This document shows, one piece after another, positions 9,679 to 36,180 of a stretch of 64,000 bases of DNA. Below the pieces are notes generated by a model that did not search any database, was not told where the DNA came from, and saw only the letters and a list, made by a program, of their open reading frames with translations. Each line of letters opens with the position of its first letter. Within the stretch, counting starts at the first letter, position 1. Made by a program: the position numbers and the translations under genes. This DNA is from Chamaesiphon minutus PCC 6605 (GTDB taxonomy: Bacteria; Cyanobacteriota; Cyanobacteriia; Cyanobacteriales; Chamaesiphonaceae). Location of the stretch: positions 186,001 to 250,000 of the forward strand of contig NC_019697.1 of assembly GCF_000317145.1 (NCBI RefSeq). The letters are read 5' to 3'.

Positions 9679-10317
9679 ATGAAACTAATCACCACAGCCA
9701 GAACTTTATTGACTTTTACTACCGCAGTCAGCATCCTCTTGGGCGGACAATTAGTTCGATCGCAACTACCGCCAGTAGTCGATAATACACCATCTGATTT
9801 AGTCGTCAACGATCGATCGTCTAATAGCTCTGGATCGGGATTGAGAGTTAGTTGCCAGGGTCTGCAAACAATCGTCCAAAAAGGCGATCGGCAAGCCGTG
9901 ATGTTGAGTTGGAATTATGATGGCTTTGGCAGAGAATATACTCCTGAAAAACGCTGCCAGATCGTGTCAGAACGCCTCCAGCTAGCTGCCGATCGGAATG
10001 GTGGTACTTTTCAAGATTTACAGTTAGCCAGCGGGGTAGTTAACTCACAAACGGTAATTTGTGCATTGTCATCTCATAGTAAATGCAATCGCAGAAATAT
10101 GTTATTCACACTCAAACCAGAAAATGCTCGCAATCCCGAAAGTGTGATTCAAAAAATGTTAGTTTTTGCCCAAGATGGCAGTGCTTATATTAATGAAAGT
10201 GCTACCAACAGCAGACCGCAAGTCACTACTAACTTGGGAACTTGGGAGCAGAAAGCATTTCCACAGTCTCAAAATGCTTCCACACCCAAGCGCAGAAATA
10301 ACAATACTGGCTTTTAG
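9679..10317 (+). CDS. COP23 domain protein (circadian oscillating protein-like)
   Basis: The protein has 212 residues with an N-terminal signal peptide (~1-28). The COP23 hallmark is the stretch around EYTPEKRCQIVSERLQLAA, preceded by SCQG and followed by VICALSSHSKCNRRNMLFTL; four cysteines fit the family. COP23 was described as a membrane-associated cyanobacterial protein with circadian abundance. Its biochemical role is unknown. It lies in a same-strand run with the secreted protein upstream and PrxQ 48 bp downstream. Confidence 0.8.
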   Translation: MKLITTARTLLTFTTAVSILLGGQLVRSQLPPVVDNTPSDLVVNDRSSNSSGSGLRVSCQGLQTIVQKGDRQAVMLSWNYDGFGREYTPEKRCQIVSERLQLAADRNGGTFQDLQLASGVVNSQTVICALSSHSKCNRRNMLFTLKPENARNPESVIQKMLVFAQDGSAYINESATNSRPQVTTNLGTWEQKAFPQSQNASTPKRRNNNTGF

Positions 10318-10365
10318 TCAGAATTAAGCTAAAATATTTCGATATATAAAAATAGGCATATCGAA

Positions 10366-10833
10366 ATGAATATCGGCCAATCTGCACCCACATTTACCGC
10401 ACCCGATCGAGCAGGCAAGAATATGAGTCTGGAGGATTTTAAGAGTCAATGGCTAGTACTATATTTTTATCCTAAAGATAATACTCCGGGTTGTACGACT
10501 GAGGCGATCGAATTTACCAGTAAATTACCCGATTTCCAGGCACTCAATACTCAAGTTGTCGGTATCAGTCCCGACTCGATCGCCTCTCATGGTAAGTTTA
10601 TCGATAAACAGAAACTAGGGATAATTTTACTCAGCGATCCCGAACATCAAATCGCCGAAGATTACGGAGTCTGGCAATTAAAGAAATTCATGGGCAAGGA
10701 ATATATGGGCATCATTAGATCGACTTTTCTGATCGATCCGATTGGCAATGTTGCCCACGTTTGGTCGAATGTCAAAGTCAAAAATCATGTCGATAGTGTC
10801 TTAGATCGAGTTAGATCTTTAGTCAATCCGTAG
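10366..10833 (+). CDS. Peroxiredoxin of the BCP/PrxQ family, one-cysteine form
   Basis: The protein has 155 residues. The peroxidatic site is FYPKDNTPGCTTEA with Cys43 and the conserved Thr and Pro; IRSTFLIDP supplies the conserved Arg strand. It reduces hydrogen peroxide and organic peroxides. Cys43 is the only cysteine in the protein. The resolving cysteine five residues later in typical PrxQ is Ile here, so reduction must involve an outside thiol. It sits 48 bp after the COP23-like gene. Confidence 0.92.
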   Translation: MNIGQSAPTFTAPDRAGKNMSLEDFKSQWLVLYFYPKDNTPGCTTEAIEFTSKLPDFQALNTQVVGISPDSIASHGKFIDKQKLGIILLSDPEHQIAEDYGVWQLKKFMGKEYMGIIRSTFLIDPIGNVAHVWSNVKVKNHVDSVLDRVRSLVNP

Positions 10834-10869
10834 GTTGGTTAGAGCGTAATATCTGGGTAATATACAGAG

Positions 10870-10898
10870 AGCTGTAGGGTGGGCAGTGCCCACCAGCT
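10870..10898. repeat. Palindromic repeat GTAGGGTGGGCAgTGCCCACC
   Basis: The perfect arms GGTGGGCA / TGCCCACC (10878-10885 with 10887-10894) are flanked by AGCT on both sides. Related copies are at 56475 and 56544. It lies between the convergent prxQ and egtD, where it could also act as a two-way terminator. Confidence 0.75.
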
Positions 10899-10925
10899 AC
10901 ATTTTGGGCAATAAAATCGAATAAT

Positions 10926-11969
10926 CTAAGGGCAATCATTCGCCAATAAACATTGACGCTGACACAGAATTAAACCAAACCATGACTGCGGATCTGTCCA
11001 AACTTTCAACGGTTGAAGCGCATGAGCTTCGAGCGTATCGGTTAGAGCAGGCAAATTAAATTTCCGAGAAATTTCGGTGTGAATGGTTTCGCCCGATCGC
11101 AAGGAAATTTCTAAATCGAGATCCTTGAGCTTGGCTGTCTGAGCAGTTAAACTTCTAAGATGCATTTCAATCTGGCTGGCGGTGGTATTAAAGAAGGCAA
11201 AATGCTCGAAATTATCGAGATTAAAATCGCCAGCGAAGCGGTGATTGAGATGGCGCAAAATATTGAGATTAAAAGCAGCAGTCACGCCTTGGGCATCATT
11301 ATAAGCGGCTTCGAGAATCTCGATCGGTTTTTGGAGATCTACCCCTAACAAGAAAAATTCACCAGGTTGGAGAGCCTCTTGGACTTGAGTCAGAAACAGA
11401 TCGCAGGATCGATCGTCTAAATTGCCCATCGTACTTCCCAAGAACATCAGCATCCGGTTTTGGATAATGCGAGGTGGGAGATTTGCTAGGGCGCGTTCGT
11501 AGGTACCCGCGACACCACAGACATTGAGCTGGGGATAATCATTTAATAATTGCAGGGCAGTGGTGCGAAGAATGCCAGCACTAACATCGATCGGATAATA
11601 ATGCAGGGGGTCTTCGAGTTGAGAGTAAGCTGTCAGTAATGTCTGAGTTTTTCGGGAACTCCCACTACCAAGTTCGACAAGTTCGCAAGCTCCCGTGAGT
11701 GCGACTATTTCGGAGACATAAGTATCGAGGATCGCTTGTTCGGTGCGGGTGGGATAATATTCCGGCAGATCGGTGATTTGCTCGAATAATTCCGAACCAA
11801 GATCGTCATAAAAGTATCGCGAGGGTAAGGTTTTCGGGTTTCTCCTTAAGCCATCGATAATATCGCTACCTCGTTGGCGTAGCCCCTCATTCTGAGGATC
11901 GATCTCTGGCAAGTCGGCATCTAGATTAATCCATCGCAGCCGTTCGTATTCTTTAATTTGAGTTTTCAC
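10926..11969 (-). CDS. egtD: L-histidine N(alpha)-methyltransferase (ergothioneine biosynthesis)
   Basis: The protein has 347 residues. Family features are GLRRNPKTLPSRYFYDD, LFEQITDLPEYYPTRTE, the SAM-binding ELGSGSSRKT, YPIDVS, FLGSTMGNL and the C-terminal EISRKF. It trimethylates histidine to hercynine, the first step to ergothioneine, an antioxidant thiol. The partner sulfoxide synthase EgtB is not in this window, although the two are often adjacent in bacteria. The N-terminal stretch NEGLRQRG is encoded by a short dispersed repeat (11869-11888), so this segment may be an in-frame insertion. Confidence 0.93.
   Translation of the reverse strand: MKTQIKEYERLRWINLDADLPEIDPQNEGLRQRGSDIIDGLRRNPKTLPSRYFYDDLGSELFEQITDLPEYYPTRTEQAILDTYVSEIVALTGACELVELGSGSSRKTQTLLTAYSQLEDPLHYYPIDVSAGILRTTALQLLNDYPQLNVCGVAGTYERALANLPPRIIQNRMLMFLGSTMGNLDDRSCDLFLTQVQEALQPGEFFLLGVDLQKPIEILEAAYNDAQGVTAAFNLNILRHLNHRFAGDFNLDNFEHFAFFNTTASQIEMHLRSLTAQTAKLKDLDLEISLRSGETIHTEISRKFNLPALTDTLEAHALQPLKVWTDPQSWFGLILCQRQCLLANDCP
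11869..11888 (-). repeat. Short dispersed repeat (GGCTACGCCAACG) inside egtD
   Basis: On the minus strand the core GGCTACGCCAACGAGG encodes GLRQRG of EgtD. Near copies are at 12192-12209, 13490-13510 and 14064-14082 (in purT). A weaker version, GAGGCTACGCCC, lies at 44804 before the ArsA gene. Confidence 0.6.
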
Positions 11970-22855: not shown

Positions 22856-23551
22856 CTAAGAGGTTAGAGGTTTACCCTTGTAAGTCCATTTGAAGGGTTT
22901 GGCCATCGTAATGTTAAAGTAGTCCACAAACTCATGGATCCGGGCTTTCAAGTGATTTGTACTGGTAAAGCTACCGCGTCGTAACAATTTCCGTACTAGA
23001 ATCCCAAACCAGATCTCAATCTGATTCATCCAAGAACAATGTTTGGGCGTGTAATGAATCACTAGCCGATGGTTTGGGTCGGCTAAAAATTGCGCTCGCG
23101 TCTCCATTGACTTCAAAATCCCCGACTGACCTTTAACACCCAGCTCCTGTGGAGTTGTCTCTAATCCGGCCACCAGCCTAACCAGCGTCTCGGATTGATG
23201 GGTATTGAGACAATCCATGACCAAATGGTATTTTGCGGCAGTGGGATATTGTGCTAAGGAACGGGTGACATGCTCGGCGAAATCAGCTTCGGTTCGAGTT
23301 GCGCCCACACTGGCCAACGCAATTCGACCAGTTGCCACATCGAAACTGGCAATTAATGATTGAGTTCCGTGTCGAGTATATTCAAACTCTACACGTTCGC
23401 ACTGTCCTGGTTTCATCGGAATATTTGGCATAGTTCTCTCCAGTGCTTGAATCCCAGTCATTTCGTCCAGGCTGAGGGTGACTTCTCCTGTCAGCGCACG
23501 TTGGGGTGCTTGTTCGTAGACACGACAGATGTGTTCAACTTTGTGCCCCAA
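22856..23551 (-). CDS. IS630-family transposase, C-terminal catalytic part (frame B)
   Basis: 231 residues are counted from a TTG, but the part is probably made only by frameshift from frame A. The DDE acidic residues are in [15 protein letters not shown] and NQIEIWFG, all present, so the enzyme may be active. The frame continues upstream to an eight-C run (plus-strand G run at 23561-23568), where a -1 shift joins it to frame A as ...[16 protein letters not shown]. Confidence 0.9.
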
Positions 23552-24075
23552 TTCTGGGTCGGGGGGGGATGCAACCAGTAACTACTCTGGTGGGGTTTGA
23601 GTTCGGCTTCAGCTAGGAGTCTGCCCACATGTCGCTGGCTAATCGATGCGACGATGCCCTGTTTTATCAGTTCGGCGGCTAATTCTCTGCTCGTCCACTG
23701 ACTGATGGGACGGCCGTACTGTTCGGGCGGGGCACATGCGATGGCGTATAGTTGTGTGATTTGTTCGAGGGTGAAGGTGGCTGGCGCACCTGGTCGCACG
23801 GCATCCATCAGCCGCTCGATGGCTGGCAGTTGTCGATCCTTCAACTCCAACCATCTGTTTCGCCATAATCTACTCATATCCTTGCTAATTTCTAATGTCT
23901 CAGCAATCTCACCGTGACTTTTCCCTTGGGCTGCCAAGACGATGATTTTGGCTCGGAGTGCGATTTGTTGTGGCGTTTTCTTGCGCTTGAGTAGTTGTTG
24001 TAGTTCGGCTTGTTCTACTTCATTGAGTGTAATTAGGGCAGCGGATAATCTTGGCATCCTCTGTGTTCCTCTCAT
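23491..24075 (-). CDS. IS630-family transposase, N-terminal DNA-binding part (frame A)
   Basis: The frame has 194 residues. The first ~150 form the helix-turn-helix region of IS630 transposases ([26 protein letters not shown]...WRNRWLE), followed by [20 protein letters not shown] and [10 protein letters not shown]. The real N-part ends near residue 169 at the C run; the remaining residues are out of frame. Its ATG overlaps the TGA of the interrupted macro-domain gene (ATGA at 24072-24075), so host transcription and translation could feed it. Confidence 0.9.
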
Positions 24076-24611
24076 TTTGATGAGCTGCTTTCAATCATAG
24101 GTCTATTTACGCCGCTCTGTACTAGTTCTATACTTGTCTCTTTCTGCAAAAAATCTATTGTTGTTTGTAGTGCAATCTTTGCTGCTGCCTCTATTGGAAA
24201 TCTATATGCACCAGTAGAAATAGACGGAAATGCAATCGATCGACATTTGCGATCGTTAGCTAAAATCAAAGAGCTGAGATAAGCTTTCTCTAATAAAGAC
24301 ACCGATTTATCATAGTACTTTTGATTGAAAAAAGGCCCCACTGTATGAATTACATATTTAGCTGATAGATTTCCAGCACTAGTTATTCTTGCTTCTCCCG
24401 TTGGACACCTTTGTCCGCGTTCATCGATTGGCAGTGCTAAACATTCTTCTAATAATGTAGAGCCTGCGGCTCGATGAATTGCGCCATCAACACCGCCGCC
24501 TCCTTTGAGTTTTGTATTTGCAGCATTTACAATTGCATCGACATTCTGCTCTACAATATTGCCTAATATTAGTTCGATCTGTCCAGATTGTGATTGAAAT
24601 ATAGTTGACAT
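24072..24611 (-). CDS. Macro-domain protein interrupted by an IS near its C-terminus
   Basis: It now encodes 179 residues. The macro (ADP-ribose binding) fold is clear: IVNAANTKLKGGGGVDGAIHRAAG is the ligand loop (residues ~29-52), then CPTGEARITSAGNL, YVIHTVGPFF and RSIAFPSISTGAYRFP. Such proteins bind or hydrolyse ADP-ribose or O-acetyl-ADP-ribose. After Val164 the last 15 residues come from the IS end. The native tail of 23 residues lies beyond the IS (22756-22827), giving an original length of 187. The missing strand and helix may reduce stability. recJ lies just upstream, 16 bp away, possibly co-transcribed. Confidence 0.92.
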   Translation of the reverse strand: MSTIFQSQSGQIELILGNIVEQNVDAIVNAANTKLKGGGGVDGAIHRAAGSTLLEECLALPIDERGQRCPTGEARITSAGNLSAKYVIHTVGPFFNQKYYDKSVSLLEKAYLSSLILANDRKCRSIAFPSISTGAYRFPIEAAAKIALQTTIDFLQKETSIELVQSGVNRPMIESSSSK

Positions 24612-24627
24612 ATATATCTTATTGGCG

Positions 24628-26994
24628 TTAATGGCTCAAACTAGCTTCGATCGCGTAAACTGGCACATGGAGAAAATAGTTACGCTTGAATTGTTCTTCC
24701 TCGATCGCGGCGAAGAATTCTCGGACAGTAATTAACGAATACAGATCTAACTCGTTTCGTTCTTGCAGTTGAGATAACGTAATCGTAACCAAATTAGTTT
24801 GGTTATTTAACGACACATCAAAACCAATTTCTACTAGCGCATCTAAACCCAGCCGCATCGCTCGATCGCTAATGTTGAGACGAGAGCGCAATCGATATAA
24901 ATTAATACTTTCGCAAGTCTGGATCGCGTATTTAGCAATACCAAGTAGCTGCTGAAGTATTTCGCTATTAGTAGCCAGATTGGTAGATTGATAATTAAGA
25001 GCTAGCTTACTGCTTGTTTGAATTGCTTGTTGACAATAGCATTGTAGCTCATCCCAATCGCTGGGACATTGCTTCACCCAGATAATTGGCTCGGAATCGA
25101 TCGCGGCTGAATCGACCGATTCTTGACGAAAATCGAGTACTTTTAAATTAAATTGTCGATCGCTAAAATTCAGAGATTTATTATCGATCGCCGCCGGACG
25201 GACTTCGACTAGGCGGATTTCAAATCTTTTCTCATAGGAGTTAAAATCCAGTTCGACGATCGCGTCGCAATTTACGCGCGGAATCTCATGCTCGTAATGT
25301 CCCCACCAAATACCAGGGAAGCCTTTAGAGCTAGTAGCATCGAACAGCTCAAATTTTGTCCGAATATATTGAACTGTTTTACCTTTAAAGTCTTGAATAT
25401 TGCGATTTTTGATATCTTTAAACTGACAATTTTTAATTAATAATTTAGGTACTGGATTGCCCATACCATAAGGTTCGAGCAATAGTAAATCTTCAAATAG
25501 CTCTCGTCCATTCGACACCTGAAGATCGGCTAAAGTAACGAGCAGATCTGTCGCGATCGATGGGGGTGGAATGGTACCGAGTTTCGCCTGTAACTGTTGG
25601 TTAATTGCTTCTGTAAATAGCGGAATATTATCTAGATCGATACTCATCCCCGCTGCGAAAGGATGTCCGCCAAAACTATTGAGTAAATGTGATTGAGAAT
25701 TGACTAATTGATACAGGTCAATATTTTGAGTCGATCGCGCCGAACCTCTCGCAACTTTTACCTTTTCTTTACCCGCATCACCGTCGCTATTCGTACTCAA
25801 TAAAATTGTTGGTTTTCCGTGTTCTTGAGCTACCTGTCCGGCAACCAAACCTAAGACTCCAGGCGACCAATTGCTATCTACTAAAACAATTACGGAAGTA
25901 GTAGATAAATCCAAATCGGACAATTTGCTCTGAACCTTGAGCGTCGTATTCTTTTGCAACTCCTTCCGGCGCGTATTTGCTAGTTCAGTTTCGGCGGCTA
26001 GCTCGTGACAGCGATCGACATCTTTACTAGTTAATAACTCTACCCCAAAACTAGCATCGCCATGTATCCGACTAATCGCATTAATACGTGGTGCAATTCC
26101 AAACGAAATATCTGTCGGTCGATCGCCATTGCGCTTACATAATTGTAATAACTTATGCACTCCCGGACGGAAACCATCGATATCCGGCTGATTTTGCTGC
26201 GTCAATCGCTTGATACCTTGCTGCGCCAAATAGCGACAATCGCCACTCAATTGCACCAAATCTGCAATCAACCCGATCGCAACTAAATCCAATAAGTACT
26301 CGACTGGTTGCTTCGGAATATCTGGCAAAGCTACATATAAAGCCTCGACTAACTTATACGCTACCGCCACCCCAGATAAATGAAATAATGGATGCTCGGA
26401 CTCAAAATAACGTGGATTGATAATTGCCGTTACTGGCGGACGTTTTGCAGGCAAAGTATGATGATCGGTGACGATGACATCGACACCTAATTTAGTGGCA
26501 TATTCAACTTCTTTAATATTCGTACTACCCGTATCGCAAGTAATAATTAGCGTAATTCCTTGTGCGGCTAATTTTTTAATCCCTGCCACATTCAACCCGT
26601 GAGATTCCTTCATGCGATCGGGAATATAATAACTAAGCCGTTCTCCCCGCGCGAAAAACTGCCCCAATCCATCCCAAAGTACGCTAGTCGCTGTTACTCC
26701 ATCCGCATCAAAATCGCCCCAAATAGCCACCTTTTCGGCGTAAATGTAGGCTTTTTTCAATCTTTCTACCGCCGCCGTCATTTCCATCCCGAAGGCAAAG
26801 GGACTACTCGGCTGATATTTGTCACAATCCAAATATCCAGGTAACCGATCGATCTCTCTTAGCCCCCGCTGCCATAATAATTTCGCTGCGTATTTACCAT
26901 TTACCGTCGGTTTACATTTCCGGATCGCTGCAATAAATTCAGGGGGAATTTCTATTTGGGGTGGTAATTGCCAATCTAGGATTGAGTTTGCCAT
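24628..26994 (-). CDS. recJ: Single-stranded-DNA-specific exonuclease RecJ
   Basis: The protein has 788 residues. DHH phosphoesterase motifs are GDFDADG (DFDADG 94-99), DTGSTN (154-159) and the signature DHH (177-179), followed by the DHHA1 part with GGHPFAAGMSI. It degrades single-stranded DNA 5' to 3' in recombination and repair. It is longer than E. coli RecJ, with an extra ~200-residue C-terminal region, as in other cyanobacterial homologues. The macro-domain gene follows directly. Confidence 0.95.
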   Translation of the reverse strand: MANSILDWQLPPQIEIPPEFIAAIRKCKPTVNGKYAAKLLWQRGLREIDRLPGYLDCDKYQPSSPFAFGMEMTAAVERLKKAYIYAEKVAIWGDFDADGVTATSVLWDGLGQFFARGERLSYYIPDRMKESHGLNVAGIKKLAAQGITLIITCDTGSTNIKEVEYATKLGVDVIVTDHHTLPAKRPPVTAIINPRYFESEHPLFHLSGVAVAYKLVEALYVALPDIPKQPVEYLLDLVAIGLIADLVQLSGDCRYLAQQGIKRLTQQNQPDIDGFRPGVHKLLQLCKRNGDRPTDISFGIAPRINAISRIHGDASFGVELLTSKDVDRCHELAAETELANTRRKELQKNTTLKVQSKLSDLDLSTTSVIVLVDSNWSPGVLGLVAGQVAQEHGKPTILLSTNSDGDAGKEKVKVARGSARSTQNIDLYQLVNSQSHLLNSFGGHPFAAGMSIDLDNIPLFTEAINQQLQAKLGTIPPPSIATDLLVTLADLQVSNGRELFEDLLLLEPYGMGNPVPKLLIKNCQFKDIKNRNIQDFKGKTVQYIRTKFELFDATSSKGFPGIWWGHYEHEIPRVNCDAIVELDFNSYEKRFEIRLVEVRPAAIDNKSLNFSDRQFNLKVLDFRQESVDSAAIDSEPIIWVKQCPSDWDELQCYCQQAIQTSSKLALNYQSTNLATNSEILQQLLGIAKYAIQTCESINLYRLRSRLNISDRAMRLGLDALVEIGFDVSLNNQTNLVTITLSQLQERNELDLYSLITVREFFAAIEEEQFKRNYFLHVPVYAIEASLSH

Positions 26995-27800: not shown

Positions 27801-27928
27801 CCTGAAATTAAACGATGAGCAAGCCCTACAGTGTTACTTGACAATCTCACTTGCTAGGCTAGATTAGGATGATGTTGTAGTTTAGAATAGACGCGATAGT
27901 AAAAACGTTCTAAATATAGGTTGTGTCG

Positions 27929-28351
27929 ATGGCTGTACCTACCCTGACGATATCCGGCAAAGTTTTGGGCAAAAGCCAAAATCTATTTACGAGCTGGCAG
28001 ATGTCTTTGCCAGAGCAGTCGCTGACATTGGCAGAATTACTCGCACAGATCGTGCGATCGGAAGTTGGTGCATTTCAAGCTAGGCAAACAGAACGAAGAT
28101 CGATCGAAGTATTGGGAATACTTGATATTGAAGCTGGAGTTGCACTGGGTAAAATCGGTAGCGGTGGTAGCGATCTCGATCGGGTGGTGGATGTGGGGGG
28201 TGCGATCGACAATGCCCTGCAAGCCTTTAAAGATGGGTTTTACCTCGTATTTATCGACGACAATCAGCAAGAGGATTTGAAGGCGATTGTGAATCTGACA
28301 GCCAATTCTGAGCTGCTGTTTCTTCGTCTGACTCCTTTGGTTGGTGGGTAG
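27929..28351 (+). CDS. Putative beta-grasp (MoaD/ubiquitin-like) protein ending in Gly-Gly
   Basis: The protein has 140 residues from the ATG at 27929; a GTG two codons earlier is possible. Using the longer numbering: strand TLTISGKVL (7-15), strand LFTSWQMSL (21-29), helix LTLAELLAQIVRSEV (34-48), an insert (~50-104), strand FYLVFIDD (106-113), then VNLTANSELLFLRLTPLVGG at the very end. Helix position, the acid-containing turn and the C-terminal hydrophobic strand with PLVGG resemble MoaD and ThiS, whose free Gly-Gly is adenylated by an E1-like enzyme. No E1, JAB peptidase or molybdopterin gene is nearby. The DUF4132 gene follows by 165 bp on the same strand. The fold call is inference from pattern. 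Confidence 0.5.
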   Translation: MAVPTLTISGKVLGKSQNLFTSWQMSLPEQSLTLAELLAQIVRSEVGAFQARQTERRSIEVLGILDIEAGVALGKIGSGGSDLDRVVDVGGAIDNALQAFKDGFYLVFIDDNQQEDLKAIVNLTANSELLFLRLTPLVGG

Positions 28352-28363
28352 GTTTCGGAGAAT

Positions 28364-28476
28364 GCCTGCGATTGAAATCGCGGCTCACGATCCGAAGTCC
28401 GCCTACGCGGACTAAATCAAATATCCTAGTCCACCTAAGCGGACTATGCATTCCGAGCGGCGGTTTCAACCGCTGA
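28364..28476. repeat. Cluster of palindromic repeats between the Gly-Gly protein and DUF4132 genes
   Basis: Four hairpins are GCGATT/AATCGC, AGTCCGC/GCGGACT, AGTCCaC/GCGGACT and AGCGGcGGTT/AACCGCT. They are relatives of the element at 22497-22665 and would be transcribed if the two flanking genes form an operon, possibly affecting mRNA stability. Confidence 0.75.
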
Positions 28477-28516
28477 GGTCATTACTGAGGCCATAACTTA
28501 CGCCACTATCATTATT

Positions 28517-31500
28517 ATGCTTAACTCCGAGATCGCCCAAGCTCGCCTCAAAGAATACCAAATCACCGACTGGCAACCCACCCGCCTCGCCCAACTGCTA
28601 AAACTACCAGCCAAACTCAGATCGATCGGGTGTGGTATTTTCGGTCATGACGACAAAGGCAAACCATTCAAACGCGATGAATCTGCTGTCTCGATCGAGT
28701 CTAGCAGCAAAGCTTTAGGCGACTTAAAACCTCAAGATCGACTCAAAATATTTACCATCCTTTTCCCCCAGTTCGCGCCAACCGTCGAAGCCACTTGGCA
28801 AGGCTTCGCCAATTTGACGTATCCAATGGGCTACAACCGCCGCTCCTTCCGCGCACCCACAATAGATGCCTATAGCCAGAAACGCAACTGGTGGTTTCAA
28901 CGCCTGTTAGATGTGGTTAAGGGCTACGATGTCGATTTGCCCTGGCTGGCTAGTTGGTGTCCCTATTTTGGCTATTATGGGGACATTTTGGGCTATTTAT
29001 TTGCCATCGCCATCAATGCTGACGATGCAGTTGGGCAAGAGGTGTTCGATATTCTCATCGCTTCAGCCAAGGGCGAACATGAAATCGGCGCGATGGGGCG
29101 ACATGTAACTCGATCGCTCTTGCTCGCAAATCGTCCAGAAGGGTGGGAATTTGTCGAAAAGCTCTTAGTTGCCGCCCAGCGTCAAGAAGGGCTGCGCCAG
29201 ACGATTTTGGAGAGCGTAGATGAGGCACATCCGATCGCCTATCAGCGGATGTTAAAGCTGATTTTGGATGAAAATTTGATTCGGTTTGCAGCGACATTAA
29301 GAGCGGTGGATGTCTGGTTTGGGTTCGATTTGGACGTATTGCAGGAGAAGCAAGCGCGGGCAATTATCGCGCAAGTTTTGGAGTTTCTCACCGATGCCCA
29401 ACAGCAACAAGCCGCCCTCGCCAGCGATGACGCACAGACGGTATATTTGGCTCTCTGGTCGATCGCGTTTACAGATGCACTCCAAGCGATCGAAGTTGCC
29501 AAAACCCTCCTTCAGCACCATGAAGCCAGCCATCGGTTAGTAGCGATTCACTGTCTCAAGCAACTCGATCTACATACAGCCCGATTGGTAATCTTAAGTG
29601 CGATCGAAGATGCTGACGATCGAGTAGCTTCGTTGGCAATCCAGGCGATTAGCTATCCCACTCCAGAATTCGTGACTGCCGCGCCAGATATATTCGATCG
29701 ACTCGTGGCTATTTTCCCCCGTTGGGCGGTTAAATCCAAGCAATTACCCCCACTGGTTTGGGAGTGGATGAAGCTGACTGTCGCCCAAGAAACGATCTTC
29801 CATACTTTGTATCGCTGGTTGGGCGATCGATCGCCCAAGTTGATGATTCCCTATCTATCTGCTGCTGAATCCTATCAACGGGCAACTATCGCCACCGATC
29901 TGGCGAAGATTCAGCCGTGGGATGAGGAAATTCGCAATACATTATTTAACCTGACTGGCGATGCTAGTAGCTATGTGCGCCAACAGGTTTTAGAAATACT
30001 CAAAAAATGTCAGATTGCCAAATCTGAAACTGCACATTTAATCGGTTTACTCACTCGTAAATCTAGCGATTTACGCCAAGGAATCCTCGGTTTATTACTC
30101 AAGCAAGCGGATGAAGATGCGATCGATTCTGCTCAAATCCTATTAGCAGCTAAGGATAAGTTACAGCGACAAGCTGGCTTGGAATTAGTGGCAGAATTAA
30201 TCAAGGGAAATCGATTGGTAGCTGAATGTCAATCGATCGCGCAAACCTATCGATCTACGCGGGGCGATAAACTTACCACCGCAGAGACTCAACTACTGGA
30301 GCGGATTTTCGCACGCGAGTCGCAACCTGCAAGCTTGCGGGATGCGTTGGGTTTAGTCAATCTTGCCAATTTATACGTACCGGAACCATTAACTTGCACC
30401 AATCCCGTCGAAATAAATACGGCGGCGGCTAAAAGTACTTTAATCGCGATCGACGAATTAATCCATCAACATCGTCAAACCCCGATTCAAATCACAAATT
30501 ATCAAGGCGAAATTGAAGAAGAATTACTTGGTAACGTAACTTGGAAATTTCCTTGGTTTCAAAAAGATCTATCTCCAACCGAAAATTTGGCGCGGCTGCC
30601 CTTAGCAGATGTGTGGGAAAACTGGTATCACAGCGATCGATCTAAAGATGAAGATGGTTTAGAACTAATTCGGGCGATCTCACCTCGCTATAAAACAGAT
30701 GTGGAGTATTGCATAAGAACTGAAGAAAATGAAGATTTGGATAATAATATTGAGTCCCCATACAATCAGCTTCGCAGCATTTTCAAGACATCATTTGGTA
30801 AGATAGATCGAGATTTGCGCTATCCAGCATTAGTAAATAATATTGTTAGTTGGTTGTTATATCTTCACCCTCAGCCAAACGCAATCGATTTTTCTTTAAA
30901 TCTACTCACAATGGTGTTGACGGCTGTAGACCCACTCGAATTACAACGCTCGATATCTCATCTGGTGACTGGCACAAGATATTTTGTAGCCTTCATCGGA
31001 CAAGTCAATAGCTTCGCACGACGATGGAGCGATGTTAGCGAGAGACATTTTCGGCGGTGGTGGCAAATTGCTACTTGGCTCGACAATAGTATTTGGTATT
31101 TTATCTGTCGAGATAGAGCAATCTGTCTTGAGAATGTGGTGACTGCTTATCATTTTGGCTTGGCTAATATTGCAGATGTTACCTATTATTTATTGAGTGA
31201 TTCTTCATCAGCATGGAGCGAAAGATTCGAGAAAGAATTACAACAGATGCCTGTTAACATAACCTACTCTAGAAATGATTTTTTTGCTCTGCAAAGGCTC
31301 ACTCGGCGGAAATTATCGGATTTAGATCCAAAAATGAATATTGCGATCGAAGCTGCAAATTTATGTCGCGATCGCATTCTCGAAATTGAATGCCAACGGG
31401 GAGATTTACCCACGGCGGCGACAAATGCAGCACTGGCATTGAGATCGATCGAGGGTATTCCGACGATCGTTAAACTATTACAGAATTTAGATAATGCCAC

Positions 31501-33484
31501 CTTCGTGCGTGGCTATACTTACGGCAACCAGAGCAAAGCCGCCGTGATGAGCCACTTGATGCGGATTAGTTTCCCCGCCAGTAACGATACGCCTGTAGAA
31601 TTTGCCCGCCAAGTCAGAGCCGCGAAAATTAGTGAAGAGAAGCTGATTCAATTTGCCTTCTTTGCGCCCCAATGGGTGAATTATATCCAACAGGCGATCG
31701 ATCTTCCTTGCTTTGCCGAAGGAGTCTGGTGGATTCACGCCCACACTAAAGATAATAATTGGTCGGTAGAACAGGATGTGCGGGAAATCTGGGTAGCGCA
31801 GATTGCCGAACGGACTCCGCTTTCGGCAGCTAGTCTCGTCGATGGAGCCGTGGATGTGGAATGGTTTGGGCGGGTTTATGCTACCTTAGGCGCAGAACGC
31901 TGGCAACAGTTGGATAAAGCCGCTCAATATGCCTCCAACGGTAGCGGGCATCAACGCGCCAAACAGTTTGCTAGTGCCATGTTAGGACAGATCGACAGGA
32001 AAGAATTACTCGATCGAATCGTTAAAAAACGCCACCAAGATTCCGTTCGCGCCCTCGGATTATGCCCCCTCGATACTGGCAAAAACCGCGAACCCGACAT
32101 CCTGAAACGCTATCAAACCTTTCAAGAATTCCTCCGCACTAGCAAAAAATTCGGCTCCCAACGCCGCGCCAGCGAAAAACTCGCCGTCGAAATCGGCATG
32201 GAAAACCTCGCTCGCACCGCCGGATTCGCCGATCCGCAACGACTGCAATGGGCGATGGAAGCCGCCGCCATTGCCGATCTGGTCGATCGAGCGCAAGTAG
32301 TTTCGATCGAAGATACTACCGTCTCCTTGAGCATTACCACCACAGGCACCCCCGAAATTACCATTACCAAAGCCGGAAAAACTCTCAAAGCCATCCCCGC
32401 CAAACTGAAGAAAAACCCCGACATAGAGGCATTAGTCGATCGCAAACAATCGATCGTCAAACAAGCTTCCCGCATGAGACTGTCCCTCGAACAGGCAATG
32501 GAGCGCGGCGATGCCTTCACCAAGCAAGAACTCCAACAGCTCGCCCAGCACCCCGTCCTCGCACCGATGCTGCGCCAGCTAGTACTCATCGCCACTGCTG
32601 GTAACGAGATCGGCTACCTCGAACCCAACGGCACCGAACTAGTCTCGCCCAACGGCAAAGTCAAAATTACTGCCGAAAAATTCCGCATCGCCCATCCCCA
32701 CGACCTCCTAGTCACCAAAGAATGGCATCTCTGGCAGCAAGAATGTTTTACCAGCGAACGCCAACAGCCCTTCAAACAAGTCTTCCGCGAACTTTATGTC
32801 GCAACTACCGCCGAACAAACTAAGACGGGTTCCAAACGCTACGAAGGGCATCAAGTCAACCCCCGTCAAGCGATCGCCCTATTCGGACAGCGCGGCTGGA
32901 TCTCCTCCCCTGACGAAGGCTTGCGCCGTACCTTCCACCAAGAAGGCTTAATCGCCCTCGTCTCCTTTGCCAATGGCTACTACACCCCCCTCGAAGTCGA
33001 AGGCTTGACGATCGATCGACTCAACTTCTACAAACGCGACGAGTGGAAACCCCTGCCCCTGGCTGATATCCCACCCCGCATCTTCAGCGAAGTCATGCGC
33101 GATCTCGATCTCGTCGTCAGCGTCGCCCACATCGGCGGAGTAGATCCTGAAGCCAGTGCCTCAACCGTGGAAATGCGATCGAGCATCCTCCGCGAAACCT
33201 GTCGGCTAATGAAACTAAATAACGTCCAAATCCAAGGTTCTCACGCCCTCATTAACGGCGAAATCGGCACCTATTCGGTACATCTGGGCAGTGCGATCGT
33301 CCATCGTCAACCAGGCGGTGCGCTCTGCATTCTCCCCGTCAGTTCCCAACATCGCGGACGGTTATTCTTACCCTTCGTCGATGACGATCCGAAGACGGCA
33401 GAAATCATGTCGAAGGTGTTACTGTTGGCGAAGGATAAGGAAATTCAAGATCCGACAATTTTAGAGCAGATTTTGAATAAGTAG
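28517..33484 (+). CDS. Giant DUF4132 domain protein with HEAT-like repeats
   Basis: The protein has 1655 residues, no signal peptide and no membrane helix. Residues ~230-600 are alpha-helical repeats of HEAT type (SHRLVAIHCLKQLDLHTARLVIL; DDRVASLAIQAI; SSYVRQQVLEIL). From ~1200 the C-terminal part is DUF4132: RRASEKLAVEIGMENLARTAG..., DLLVTKEWHLWQQECF, QPFKQVFRELYV, ALFGQRGW, REVMRDLDLVVSVAHIGG-like and the final GALCILPVSSQHRGRLFLPF. DUF4132 also occurs in MolR-type proteins; its function is unknown. The upstream Gly-Gly protein may be its partner. The C-terminal third has the strongest family match. Confidence 0.82.
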   Translation: MLNSEIAQARLKEYQITDWQPTRLAQLLKLPAKLRSIGCGIFGHDDKGKPFKRDESAVSIESSSKALGDLKPQDRLKIFTILFPQFAPTVEATWQGFANLTYPMGYNRRSFRAPTIDAYSQKRNWWFQRLLDVVKGYDVDLPWLASWCPYFGYYGDILGYLFAIAINADDAVGQEVFDILIASAKGEHEIGAMGRHVTRSLLLANRPEGWEFVEKLLVAAQRQEGLRQTILESVDEAHPIAYQRMLKLILDENLIRFAATLRAVDVWFGFDLDVLQEKQARAIIAQVLEFLTDAQQQQAALASDDAQTVYLALWSIAFTDALQAIEVAKTLLQHHEASHRLVAIHCLKQLDLHTARLVILSAIEDADDRVASLAIQAISYPTPEFVTAAPDIFDRLVAIFPRWAVKSKQLPPLVWEWMKLTVAQETIFHTLYRWLGDRSPKLMIPYLSAAESYQRATIATDLAKIQPWDEEIRNTLFNLTGDASSYVRQQVLEILKKCQIAKSETAHLIGLLTRKSSDLRQGILGLLLKQADEDAIDSAQILLAAKDKLQRQAGLELVAELIKGNRLVAECQSIAQTYRSTRGDKLTTAETQLLERIFARESQPASLRDALGLVNLANLYVPEPLTCTNPVEINTAAAKSTLIAIDELIHQHRQTPIQITNYQGEIEEELLGNVTWKFPWFQKDLSPTENLARLPLADVWENWYHSDRSKDEDGLELIRAISPRYKTDVEYCIRTEENEDLDNNIESPYNQLRSIFKTSFGKIDRDLRYPALVNNIVSWLLYLHPQPNAIDFSLNLLTMVLTAVDPLELQRSISHLVTGTRYFVAFIGQVNSFARRWSDVSERHFRRWWQIATWLDNSIWYFICRDRAICLENVVTAYHFGLANIADVTYYLLSDSSSAWSERFEKELQQMPVNITYSRNDFFALQRLTRRKLSDLDPKMNIAIEAANLCRDRILEIECQRGDLPTAATNAALALRSIEGIPTIVKLLQNLDNATFVRGYTYGNQSKAAVMSHLMRISFPASNDTPVEFARQVRAAKISEEKLIQFAFFAPQWVNYIQQAIDLPCFAEGVWWIHAHTKDNNWSVEQDVREIWVAQIAERTPLSAASLVDGAVDVEWFGRVYATLGAERWQQLDKAAQYASNGSGHQRAKQFASAMLGQIDRKELLDRIVKKRHQDSVRALGLCPLDTGKNREPDILKRYQTFQEFLRTSKKFGSQRRASEKLAVEIGMENLARTAGFADPQRLQWAMEAAAIADLVDRAQVVSIEDTTVSLSITTTGTPEITITKAGKTLKAIPAKLKKNPDIEALVDRKQSIVKQASRMRLSLEQAMERGDAFTKQELQQLAQHPVLAPMLRQLVLIATAGNEIGYLEPNGTELVSPNGKVKITAEKFRIAHPHDLLVTKEWHLWQQECFTSERQQPFKQVFRELYVATTAEQTKTGSKRYEGHQVNPRQAIALFGQRGWISSPDEGLRRTFHQEGLIALVSFANGYYTPLEVEGLTIDRLNFYKRDEWKPLPLADIPPRIFSEVMRDLDLVVSVAHIGGVDPEASASTVEMRSSILRETCRLMKLNNVQIQGSHALINGEIGTYSVHLGSAIVHRQPGGALCILPVSSQHRGRLFLPFVDDDPKTAEIMSKVLLLAKDKEIQDPTILEQILNK

Positions 33485-33545
33485 GATATGTAAGCTGGTA
33501 TAGAAATAGCTCTTTCGATTTCAGTATTTTTAGTGAGGTTTGATT

Positions 33546-35306
33546 ATGGATCGTGATGAACTTCGGCAGCGATACTCAAAAGGTAGAAAAAACTTTACGG
33601 GTTTAAATCTATCTGGTTTAGATCTCTGTTACCTTCAAATGCCCTGTGCTGATTTAAGCAACTCTAATCTCAGTAACACGAAACTTACATCAGCGAATTT
33701 GGAGGTTGCTAATTTAAGTAGAGTAAACCTAGAAAATGCAGATCTGAAGTGGATTAATATTGCGAGAGCTAATCTCAATCAAGCCAATCTTCGAGGTGTT
33801 AATATGTCAAGCCTGAATTTGGGAACGGCAAACTTAGAAGAAGCTAATCTAGAAGGAGCTAGTTTATTCAATATTAGACTAGGTGGTACTAACTTAACTG
33901 GAGCTAATTTAAGCAATACGGATCTGAAACGTGCTTGGCTTAATAAAGTCAGTTTACGAAATGCTAACTTGACAGGAGCAGATCTAACTGGTGCTAATCT
34001 TCAGGGATCTGACTTAACTGGTGCTAATTTAACCGATGCAAAATTTGATGGTGTTTGTTGGTTACAAGTTCAGATCGATCCGAGCTTACTTCCCGAAAAA
34101 GATGCTCTAATCTGGAGAATTAGCAATCAAGGGGTTGATAATTTACATAGTATCGATTTGAGTAATACAGATTTGCGAAGTGTAAACCTTCAAAATACAG
34201 ATTTGAGTGACACAAATCTATGTAAAGCTAATTTACTATTCGCAAACTTGTCTGGAGCCAATTTGACTGGAGCAAATCTATCCAGCGCAAACCTTGCACA
34301 AGCAAATCTTACTAATACCAATCTCACAGATGTTAACTTAACAAATGCTCAACTATGTAAAACTAACTTTAGCTCTGCTAATTTCCAGAATATTCAATTC
34401 AATGGCACTTCGTTTTTCAATGCCAATCTTGTAGGTACGATTAACGTACCTCCATCCATATTATCAACTTCTATAATTCCTCTAAATCATCCTGACACAC
34501 ATCTACTAAATGAAATTCGTGACGTGACAGAAGAATTAACTTGTAGATCGGAGAAAGACGATCCTTATGAAATATTTATTTGGAATACGATCGACAAAGG
34601 TAAATTCACACTAGAGAAGCTACTTCGGGCGATTGCATATCTAATACCTACTAGTATTGATAATCTACAACGTATTTCTCCTGATACGGACAAGCTAACA
34701 AAAGCCTACCAATTTCTACTTAGTGCTATTGAAGAACAATTGACAGATATTGAACTATGGCAACTTGAAACTGAATCAATTGGAGATGTTTCTTATGCAA
34801 GACCATGTATTGTCATTGGTCGAACGCTCGATGGGGATTGGTTGGGAGTTACAACTCAGGTAATGTCAGTATTACAAATAGAAATTAACACAGATGAGAA
34901 GTTTTATGTAAACGATCGAGGTGCAGTAAAACCAGAGAATCAGAAATTGATTTCTATACTCGATCGAGTATTACCTGAAGCAAATAAGCTTTTACCTGAC
35001 AGCGAAGCAACCGAGCAAATTATATGGTCATTAGCAGAAAACCGTGATGACATGCTTCAGAATTTACTTTTGTCAACTAAGCATTTTGGGGTAAAAGATA
35101 TTAGGGGTGGCGAGTACTTATTTCAGAGAACAGATGTAGAAGATAATGAAGTGGATCGGCGTGAATCATTTGCAACACTAGTGATTGATAATTTAGATGA
35201 CGTTCGTGTTTACTTTATTGGAGGGTGTAATGTAGATATTTACTTGTTGGGAAAAACTAAAAATCATGACTGGATTGGCATTCAGACAGGAGTAACATGG
35301 ACTTAA
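33546..35306 (+). CDS. Pentapeptide-repeat protein with two NuiA-like domains
   Basis: The protein has 586 residues from the ATG at 33546, with GTGAGG just upstream. Residues ~15-175 and ~200-300 are pentapeptide repeats (A[N/D]Lxx), predicted to fold as a right-handed quadrilateral beta-helix. Two segments then resemble the Anabaena nuclease A inhibitor NuiA: ~326-445 with DPYEIFIW and IGRTLDGDWLGVTTQV, and ~474-588 with VYFIGGCNVDIYLLGKT and DWIGIQTGV. Pentapeptide helices often mimic DNA or serve as scaffolds, so a nuclease-control role is a reasonable guess. The gene is AT-richer and has fewer CGATCG sites than DUF4132 upstream. Confidence 0.75.
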   Translation: MDRDELRQRYSKGRKNFTGLNLSGLDLCYLQMPCADLSNSNLSNTKLTSANLEVANLSRVNLENADLKWINIARANLNQANLRGVNMSSLNLGTANLEEANLEGASLFNIRLGGTNLTGANLSNTDLKRAWLNKVSLRNANLTGADLTGANLQGSDLTGANLTDAKFDGVCWLQVQIDPSLLPEKDALIWRISNQGVDNLHSIDLSNTDLRSVNLQNTDLSDTNLCKANLLFANLSGANLTGANLSSANLAQANLTNTNLTDVNLTNAQLCKTNFSSANFQNIQFNGTSFFNANLVGTINVPPSILSTSIIPLNHPDTHLLNEIRDVTEELTCRSEKDDPYEIFIWNTIDKGKFTLEKLLRAIAYLIPTSIDNLQRISPDTDKLTKAYQFLLSAIEEQLTDIELWQLETESIGDVSYARPCIVIGRTLDGDWLGVTTQVMSVLQIEINTDEKFYVNDRGAVKPENQKLISILDRVLPEANKLLPDSEATEQIIWSLAENRDDMLQNLLLSTKHFGVKDIRGGEYLFQRTDVEDNEVDRRESFATLVIDNLDDVRVYFIGGCNVDIYLLGKTKNHDWIGIQTGVTWT

Positions 35307-35521: not shown

Positions 35522-35761
35522 ATGAGTCCAGAACTAGAGCGGATTCTCAGCCAAGCTCAACAACTCGATCGGGAATCCCAAATTCAACTGATTAGCCGTC
35601 TCTCAAACCAAACTCAGCCACAACCAGAAGAGCCAATAGAGAATCCGTGGCTGGCTATTGCAGGTAGCCTATCGGACGATCCATTCTTTGACGACTATAT
35701 TGCAGAGATCGAGCGTTATCGGCAAGAAGTGGATTCACAAGCAGAAAGCTCTGCCGCATGA
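35522..35761 (+). CDS. VapB-like antitoxin of a type II pair
   Basis: The protein has 79 residues: an N-terminal helix (SPELERILSQAQQLDRESQIQLISRL), then ENPWLAIAGSLSDDPFFDDYIAEIERYRQE, a layout common in antitoxins next to PIN toxins, where the acidic tail wraps the toxin. The stop overlaps the toxin start (ATGA at 35758-35761), the normal coupled arrangement. Confidence 0.8.
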   Translation: MSPELERILSQAQQLDRESQIQLISRLSNQTQPQPEEPIENPWLAIAGSLSDDPFFDDYIAEIERYRQEVDSQAESSAA

Positions 35762-36180
35762 ATCGTTATATTCTCGATACCGACCATCTCACCTTACTAA
35801 AACGCAATCATCCCGTTGTTAGAGCAAAGATTAGCTCGATTCCCCCAGCAGACATTTTTGTCACGATCGTCACAATTGAAGAACAATTGCGCGGTCGGCT
35901 GGCTGTCATTAGCAAAATTGCTAATCAACCAGAAAGATTCAGTATGGCTTACGATTATCTTTTCGACAGCTTTCAAGATTTTTATAATCTAAACTTACTA
36001 AGATTAGACCGAGTTGCCGCCGATTATTTTCAGCAGTTCAGAAAACAAAAAATTCGGATTGGCAGCCAAGATCTTAAAATAGCTAGTATCGCACTTTCTC
36101 AAAAAGCAACACTCCTAACTCGCAATTATAAAGATTTTATTCAAGTTCCAGGTTTATCGATCGAAGATTGGTCTGTCTAG
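35758..36180 (+). CDS. PIN-domain toxin (VapC-like ribonuclease)
   Basis: The protein has 140 residues. MNRYILDTDHLTLL carries the first PIN acidic residues (Asp7, Asp9), TIVTIEEQLRG the conserved Glu, and GSQDLKIASIALSQKATLLTRNYKDF the later Asp and the usual TxNxxDF element. VapC toxins are metal-dependent RNases acting on tRNA or rRNA. All key residues are present, so it is likely active and held by the overlapping antitoxin. Confidence 0.9.
   Translation: MNRYILDTDHLTLLKRNHPVVRAKISSIPPADIFVTIVTIEEQLRGRLAVISKIANQPERFSMAYDYLFDSFQDFYNLNLLRLDRVAADYFQQFRKQKIRIGSQDLKIASIALSQKATLLTRNYKDFIQVPGLSIEDWSV

Follow-up and report, generated by a model that had tools for sequence, protein, structure and literature searches.

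A small protein with a C-terminal Gly-Gly and its large partner

A stretch of 64,000 nucleotides from the cyanobacterium Chamaesiphon minutus PCC 6605 (contig NC_019697.1, positions 186,001 to 250,000, forward strand; hereafter the window, in whose numbering coordinates are given) carries two genes on one strand, separated by 165 bp, which code for a small protein with a Gly-Gly terminus and a very large partner protein. The small protein, here termed Ubl (ubiquitin-like protein), is encoded by an open reading frame (ORF) that runs from an ATG at 27929 to the stop codon at 28349–28351, with PLVGG as its last residues; an alternative GTG start at 27923 would give 142 instead of 140 residues. 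Ubl showed no match to any Pfam or NCBIfam family up to E = 1. The partner matched DUF5724 (E 5e-227), DUF4132 (3e-45) and DUF7737 (3e-38), plus HEAT_2, and its scores for DUF4132 (PF13569, 155 bits) and DUF7737 (PF24879, 130 bits) exceed the curated cut-offs of 27. ORFs and Pfam thus agree with the original prediction, made from the DNA letters, of a Gly-Gly-terminated protein of 140 residues followed on the same strand by a HEAT plus DUF4132 protein of 1655 residues. As described below, the glycine tail of the former is conserved together with a single cysteine of the latter (Table 1).

Table 1. Features of the Ubl–partner locus in the window
Feature	Position	Strand	Basis
LexA-like box GTAAAAACGTTC, one mismatch to GTAC-N4-GTWC, 18 bp 5' of the ATG	27899..27910	+	Motif match
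Small, probably beta-grasp ubiquitin-like protein (Ubl), 140 aa; predicted helical insert between first helix and third strand	27929..28351	+	ORF, homologue alignment, AlphaFold model
Codons of the C-terminal PLVGG tail, immediately 5' of the TAG stop	28334..28348	+	Sequence and homologue tails
Partner, 1655 aa: alpha-solenoid (HEAT/DUF5724) + DUF4132 + DUF7737	28517..33484	+	Pfam; model of the 830-aa homologue L034
DUF4132 domain, aa 1287–1461; invariant H1393, Q1417, P1418, Q1421, Y1427, T1430, R1441	32375..32899	+	Pfam and alignment
DUF7737 domain, aa 1551–1652; motif Y-x-x-H-L-G-S ... L-C-[IV]	33167..33472	+	Pfam and alignment
Codon of Cys1604, sole invariant cysteine in the aligned part; substituted in the clade without GG tail	33326..33328	+	Alignment

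Predicted fold of Ubl

An AlphaFold model of Ubl, based on 12 sequences (mean predicted local distance difference test score, pLDDT, 74.9), has the topology β-β-α-(insert)-β-β-β: strands at residues 5–13 and 18–26 and a helix at 34–61 are followed by a less certain, helical insert of about 50 residues and by C-terminal strands at 105–109, 112–114, 120–122 and 127–134. The top match in VIA-align was MoaD (5mpo; Z 8.2, root-mean-square deviation 3.3, 80 aligned residues), tied with ubiquitin-fold chains of the U11 snRNP and followed by ubiquitin in E1 complexes, NEDD8, SAMP1 and Urm1 at Z 6.4–7.0, values which are borderline, as a Z below about 8 may reflect merely a common arrangement. Alignment of the model with chains of ubiquitin, NEDD8 and MoaD extended up to residue 138. 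Because the match list is dominated by one fold despite the borderline scores, a β-grasp of the ubiquitin/MoaD type is probable, and the β-grasp call of the original prediction is borne out at that strength by the modelled β-β-α-β-β-β core and by matches at Z 6–8 mostly to ubiquitin, MoaD and SAMP. Foldseek likewise ranked human MoaD (5mpo) first, albeit at E 0.024, and returned no match at E ≤ 0.001. By sequence, Ubl is not a member of the MoaD/ThiS family (PF02597), since the profile-profile probability was 5% over 19 columns, with only the tail aligning; searches of PDB sequences with Ubl, the Ubl profile and a profile of the C-terminal part of the partner yielded no significant match.

Conservation of the C-terminal glycines

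Ubl is present in 15 of 195 related genomes. All 12 intact copies end PLVGG-stop, as do two partial frames (L032 and G027); the remaining copy (L025) is broken. A scan of named genomes employed the tail as search pattern, so that the glycines were selected for and the following stop was not; the stop followed GG immediately in 78 of 79 loci with a recovered frame. In the exceptional locus (L056, 8007–8471, forward strand), from a Sphaerobacter metagenome-assembled genome (MAG), Ubl ends GG-Ala-Val, which may represent a precursor form or a sequence error.

Another profile (A4) omitted the last ten residues; the 52 sequences behind it came from the pattern-selected and cyanobacterial sets, all with GG tails except L056, and some of the searched genomes had also supplied members. 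It gave matches in 81 of 200 genomes of Micromonosporaceae, 4 of 194 of the Marinobacterium order, 11 of 345 of Bacteroidota and 11 of 216 of Planctomycetota. GG-stop occurred in 107 of the 117 loci found in this way (by batch 73/74, 18/20, 5/12 and 11/11, the third containing Bacteroidota with tryptophan-terminated, or W-tailed, proteins); one list held 101 rows for 91 places, of which 70 and 20 were read, G518 standing outside the tail count. The ten other loci are seven Bacteroidota with tails of the type L-[AST]-G-x-Y-W, L198, whose Ubl ends PPAG and beside which no partner was found, and L316 and L320, whose frames leave the Ubl protein half-way. A homologue encoded on a Bacteroides plasmid ends MLSGRLW. 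Retention of GG-stop in loci found without recourse to the tail supports the expectation that the terminal glycines are conserved among homologues and functionally important.

The residues preceding the glycines vary (PLV, ALV, PLA, QLV, QVA), and the glycines themselves are seldom altered and seldom extended. All 16 synonymous codon pairs are used for them, which argues for a constraint on the protein; GGAGG accounts for 38 of 183 tails, in a count that drew on 198 loci, many of them the same gene fetched twice.

Pairing of Ubl with the DUF4132–DUF7737 protein

Most homologues adjoin a gene for a DUF4132 protein that carries DUF7737 at its C-terminus, and such pairs occur in Cyanobacteria, Actinomycetota, Planctomycetota, Bacteroidota, Pseudomonadota, Chloroflexota and Deinococcota. 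In the cyanobacterial set, the DUF4132 gene follows Ubl on the same strand at 10 of the 12 intact copies, whereas a contig end intervenes at the other two (L020, and L033 with transposon genes behind Ubl). Hidden Markov models (HMMs) identified a partner at 75 of 79 loci of the named-genome set, three of the remainder lying at contig ends (L036, L055 and L100) and one (L083) having none. For loci found with the tail-less profile, the partner search covered the 74 of the first batch; HMMs detected a partner in 65 and tblastn added six that are whole, partial, divergent or broken, while L185, L198 and L214 yielded none by either method. At L185, L214 and L083, Ubl keeps its GG tail without a recognizable adjacent partner gene. 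The two genes often overlap by a few bases, and in some loci, such as L084, L187 and L188, the partner lies upstream of Ubl.

Among the 195 related genomes, Ubl and DUF7737 are found in 15 each and together in 13; the four mismatches, two Ubl-only and two DUF7737-only, stem from copies that are broken or truncated at a contig end. Distances within the two families correlate strongly (Mantel r 0.88 for 127 pairs; highest value in 999 permutations 0.14), a value to which common descent contributes. The partnership proposed in the original prediction therefore gains support from conserved adjacency, co-occurrence and distance correlation. No third conserved gene, and hence no E1-E2-JAB operon, was detected around the clustered loci at a BLAST E of 1e-6 and half coverage, a setting that a fast-diverging gene could escape. 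A neighbour cluster present in 31 loci was discarded, as it consists, judged by eye, of generic ABC-transporter, response-regulator and kinase sequences.

Some loci show further peculiarities. In Aliterella, a 74-residue truncated copy of the Ubl N-terminus lies about 4.2 kb 5' of the intact gene (L022, 5243–5467, forward strand; identical to L042, 5536–5760). In B. finegoldii (L248), the W-tailed pair resides on a plasmid of 120 kb and follows a gene for a rhomboid protease; the large partner is also encoded in four Deinococcus records of the plasmid collection. Phage records contained no match to the 830-residue partner homologue, which served as query, and none of six proteins submitted to PADLOC matched a defence model. 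The genome of C. minutus encodes a second DUF4132 protein of 548 residues (L035, G000:C1:2722001-2742000, ORF 9961–11607, reverse strand), which lacks DUF7737 and an adjacent Ubl.

An invariant cysteine of the partner is lost together with the glycine tail

An alignment of 129 pairs comprised 122 with GG tails, six W-tailed pairs and L056. Position 1604, in DUF7737, is occupied in 117 of the GG-tailed pairs, each time by cysteine (it is blank in L048, L052, L081, L111 and L200), and this residue is the only invariant cysteine in the aligned part of the partner. In the W-tailed pairs it is replaced by Ser or Ala in six of six aligned and by Ser, Ser, Asn and Ser in four more, so that cysteine occurs in 0 of 10. 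The DUF4132 residues listed in Table 1, as well as R1528, G1581, S1592 and D1645, are invariant in the GG-tailed and the six W-tailed pairs alike; thus, of 12 strictly invariant partner positions, the cysteine alone has changed in the W-tailed clade, for which the naive chance is 1 in 12. The three different replacements form a pattern as under relaxed constraint. In a tree from which, as in the Mantel comparison, the five GG pairs without a letter at the cysteine and partner pieces under 330 residues had been dropped, the W-tailed pairs group together in a single clade (support 1.0); judging from these sequences, tail and cysteine were probably lost in one event. A similar logic, co-conservation of a protein tail with its enzyme, has been reported for Cap2, an E1-E2 enzyme, and the tails of cGAS (PMC10097602).

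The model of the 830-residue homologue L034 (pLDDT 88) consists of an α-solenoid (residues 1–356), matching karyopherin- and HEAT-like structures, and a C-terminal α/β part, for which the fold search with the whole model gave no match, the part not having been searched alone.

Promoter motifs and the Deinococcus orthologue

Five patterns were scanned over 194 loci before spacings were varied. E. coli-type and actinobacterial-type LexA boxes occurred in none of them; the cyanobacterial LexA core was found 4 times (0.8 expected) and a TGTCGG pattern 38 times (5.1 expected). With up to one mismatch, GTAC-N4-GTWC, which we take to be the cyanobacterial LexA-like consensus, is present at 10 of 24 cyanobacterial loci, close relatives included, as compared to 123 of 2604 control windows (4.7%); in seven of the 10, the box lies 31–39 bases before the estimated start. 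After removal of loci with identical upstream sequence, TGTC-N12-TANNNT was found upstream of 50 of 83 actinobacterial loci, as compared to 54 of 5746 control windows (0.9%); among the instances listed, it started 28–30 bases before the profile-estimated start. A spacing of 12 is the only one enriched, spacings of 8–11 and 13–16 being represented by 0 loci. This pattern emerged from the spacing scan and was not fixed beforehand; the published PafBC motif, TGTCGG-N10-TA-N3-T (PMC8151990), was compared later and agrees in spacing. An initial PafBC pattern, with 7–9 bases after TGTCRG, was abandoned (0/96; 61/96 with a looser pattern). The enrichment of candidate sites over control windows points to membership in DNA-damage regulons, with putative LexA-type control in some Cyanobacteria and PafBC-type control in some Actinomycetota, and DNA damage apparently induces the operon.

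The pair DR_A0165 (SEP068184)–DR_A0166 of Deinococcus radiodurans is orthologous to that of the window; DR_A0165 ends LTALAGG, and DR_A0166 is 37% identical to the window partner. For drA0165–drA0166, a radiation/desiccation response motif (RDRM) at –83 and induction upon depletion of DdrO have been described, and V5-tagged DRA0166 rises with mitomycin C in the wild type, but not in an irrE mutant (PMC8533742). DR_A0165 is raised by gamma rays and H2O2, binds a thioredoxin encoded upstream, and has been published as a negative regulator of oxidative resistance with a predicted MoaD-like fold and an occurrence confined to Deinococcus (PMC9650054). The family is not Deinococcus-only, as homologues occur across phyla. 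In the main text of that study the words ubiquitin, glycine and DUF4132 are absent, and the portions available do not treat the family, the GG tail or the partner cysteine. The claim that the module is undescribed thus holds in part: the Deinococcus orthologue has been knocked out and its fold noted, while it was taken there as restricted to that genus. In the open literature searched, DUF4132 is mentioned in 3 papers and SEP068184 in 2, DUF5724 and DUF7737 in none; this literature excludes most subscription papers and all bioRxiv preprints and so does not establish absence from print.

Relation to known systems

All Ubl genomes tested for an E1 (PF00899) encode one, save for the MAG G528 (41 of 42); because E1 is near universal, testing dependence on it by absence is uninformative. 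In the window genome, a single E1 exceeds the cut-off, 5.4 Mb along the contig from the pair (0.84 Mb if circular). MoaD/ThiS relatives besides Ubl occur in 19 of 19 genomes tested. With MoaD/ThiS (PF02597) and MoaE/ThiG, the Ubl pair shares the probable β-grasp, the C-terminal GG and the combination of a small protein with a larger enzyme. However, Ubl lacks sequence similarity to MoaD/ThiS and has the helical insert, and, unlike MoaE/ThiG, the partner matches DUFs and HEAT repeats only and belongs to an operon with DNA-damage promoter motifs.

Bacterial ubiquitin-like operons, namely the E1-E2-JAB types (Iyer 2006) and Cap2/Cap3 of the cyclic-oligonucleotide-based anti-phage signalling system (CBASS), resemble the Ubl pair in their patchy distribution and, in the case of cGAS and Cap2, in a tail glycine whose conservation parallels that of a particular cysteine enzyme (PMC10097602). 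The Ubl pair differs in having no conserved E1, E2 or JAB neighbour, in its DUF4132–DUF7737 partner, and in the lack of any PDB sequence match to the C-terminal profile of that partner. The D. radiodurans pair, although orthologous, was published as a Deinococcus-only regulator of oxidative resistance.

E. coli, a control genome, also has a DUF4132 protein, presumably MolR, which like the D. radiodurans protein DR2173 is a WGR protein; DUF7737 was found in 0 of 14 control genomes. DR2173 is likewise regulated by DdrO (PMC8533742). The accessible text of Kaur 2020 (PMC7159879) does not contain the terms MolR, YehI or WGR, nor that of Iyer 2006 (PMC1779556) the term HEAT.

Neighbouring genes in the window

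Directly 3' of the partner, at 33540–35306 (forward strand), a pentapeptide-repeat protein is fused to a NuiA (nuclease A inhibitor-like) domain. An ORF of 140 residues at 35758–36180 (forward strand) resembles PIN-domain (VapC-type) toxins by eye; PADLOC gave no match. On the reverse strand, an IS630-like transposase extends over two overlapping ORFs (22856–24075), and a macrodomain-like protein adjoins a RecJ-like protein (24072–26994), which may be another connection to ADP-ribose or DNA repair; these assignments, too, were made by eye.

Proposed function and alternatives

The role envisaged in the original prediction, a sulfur carrier or ubiquitin-like tag, is plausible from the sequences. 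We favour, tentatively and with slightly less than even confidence, a two-gene, DNA-damage-induced ubiquitin-like system in which the glycine tail reacts with the partner cysteine and which dispenses with an operon-encoded E1, E2 or JAB protein. Upon damage, regulators of the LexA, PafBC or DdrO type would switch on the operon, as published for Deinococcus and suggested by the motifs elsewhere. Ubl would bind the DUF4132–DUF7737 partner and insert its Gly-Gly into the active site, where the glycine carboxylate might be activated by the partner itself or by the shared MoeB/ThiF E1 of the cell. The glycine would then form a thioester with Cys1604 and pass to a target on the α-solenoid. In one Bacteroidota clade, where GG is replaced by G-x-[YLI]-W and the cysteine dropped, the pair probably became a non-covalent complex.

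Several observations weigh against this proposal. The chemistry is deduced, since the co-conservation of tail glycine and Cys1604 is the sole evidence for it, and because the co-loss is confined to a single clade, it may be coincidence; the less strictly conserved positions 1394, 1406 and 1565 also differ in W-tailed pairs. That clade keeps the pair without GG or cysteine, so not every function requires covalent chemistry, and L056 retains the partner cysteine despite two residues after GG. Similarity to E1, E2 or JAB was not found in the partner, whose N-terminal half gives solenoid matches only. In D. radiodurans, deletion of DR_A0165 led to higher survival of H2O2 with weaker radiation phenotypes, and no RDRM was found for this gene, in conflict with PMC8533742; moreover, N- and C-tagged SEP068184 co-immunoprecipitated 157 shared proteins (PMC9650054), even though tagging the C-terminus would be expected to prevent a glycine-dependent reaction.

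The main rival, somewhat unlikely in our estimation, holds Ubl to be a fixed, non-covalent regulatory subunit, with its tail filling a pocket of DUF4132–DUF7737, the glycines being kept as only they fit beside Cys1604 and the W-tailed clade inserting an aromatic tail into a remodelled pocket. Persistence of both genes in that clade, the strong distance correlation and the lack of a conserved neighbour able to activate or deconjugate Ubl would all be accounted for. The variability of the residues before GG and the rarity of altered or extended glycines, by contrast, are expected if a free carboxylate matters, and, of the strictly invariant residues, it is the sole invariant cysteine that disappeared along with GG.

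Less probable still is a sulfur carrier, with Ubl being thiocarboxylated by MoeB/ThiF and a sulfurtransferase and delivering sulfur to the partner via an acyl-disulfide with Cys1604 for a post-damage modification. MoaD is among the closest solved folds, the near-universal E1 and the additional MoaD/ThiS relatives mean that sulfur-carrier machinery is available, and D. radiodurans Ubl binds a thioredoxin (PMC9650054); against this stand the lack of a further conserved gene beside the pair and the absence of sequence similarity to MoaD/ThiS beyond the tail. A role as accessory molybdopterin synthase or molybdate regulator, which would suit the MoaD-like fold, agrees with the molybdenum-cofactor or molybdate function suggested for DRA0166, but moeA and moeB of D. 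radiodurans are not co-regulated with the pair (PMC8533742), ordinary MoaD/ThiS relatives are present as well, and no further gene is conserved nearby, which renders it very improbable. That the glycine codons serve as Shine-Dalgarno sequence of the downstream gene, an idea to which the frequent overlaps lend some appeal, is already contradicted by the codon usage, by GG tails kept across gaps of at least 165 bp (the window, L026, L027 and L096) and by those with the partner upstream (L084, L187 and L188), leaving it a negligible probability.

A more far-reaching version of the favoured covalent reading, that DUF4132–DUF7737 is a new, non-homologous ubiquitin-like activating and transfer enzyme with its own catalytic cysteine, which serves two-gene, DNA-damage-induced protein tagging in many phyla under at least three unrelated damage regulators, we regard as possible but doubtful. 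If the tail glycine does react with the partner cysteine, the pair would constitute a widespread bacterial DNA-damage ubiquitin-like pathway without a recognizable E1, E2 or JAB neighbour; it would provide a first function for DUF4132, DUF5724 and DUF7737, and would explain the damage-induced drA0165–drA0166 operon of a radiation-resistant model organism. Even should the link prove non-covalent, the analysis delimits across phyla a family together with its partner and its likely mode of regulation.

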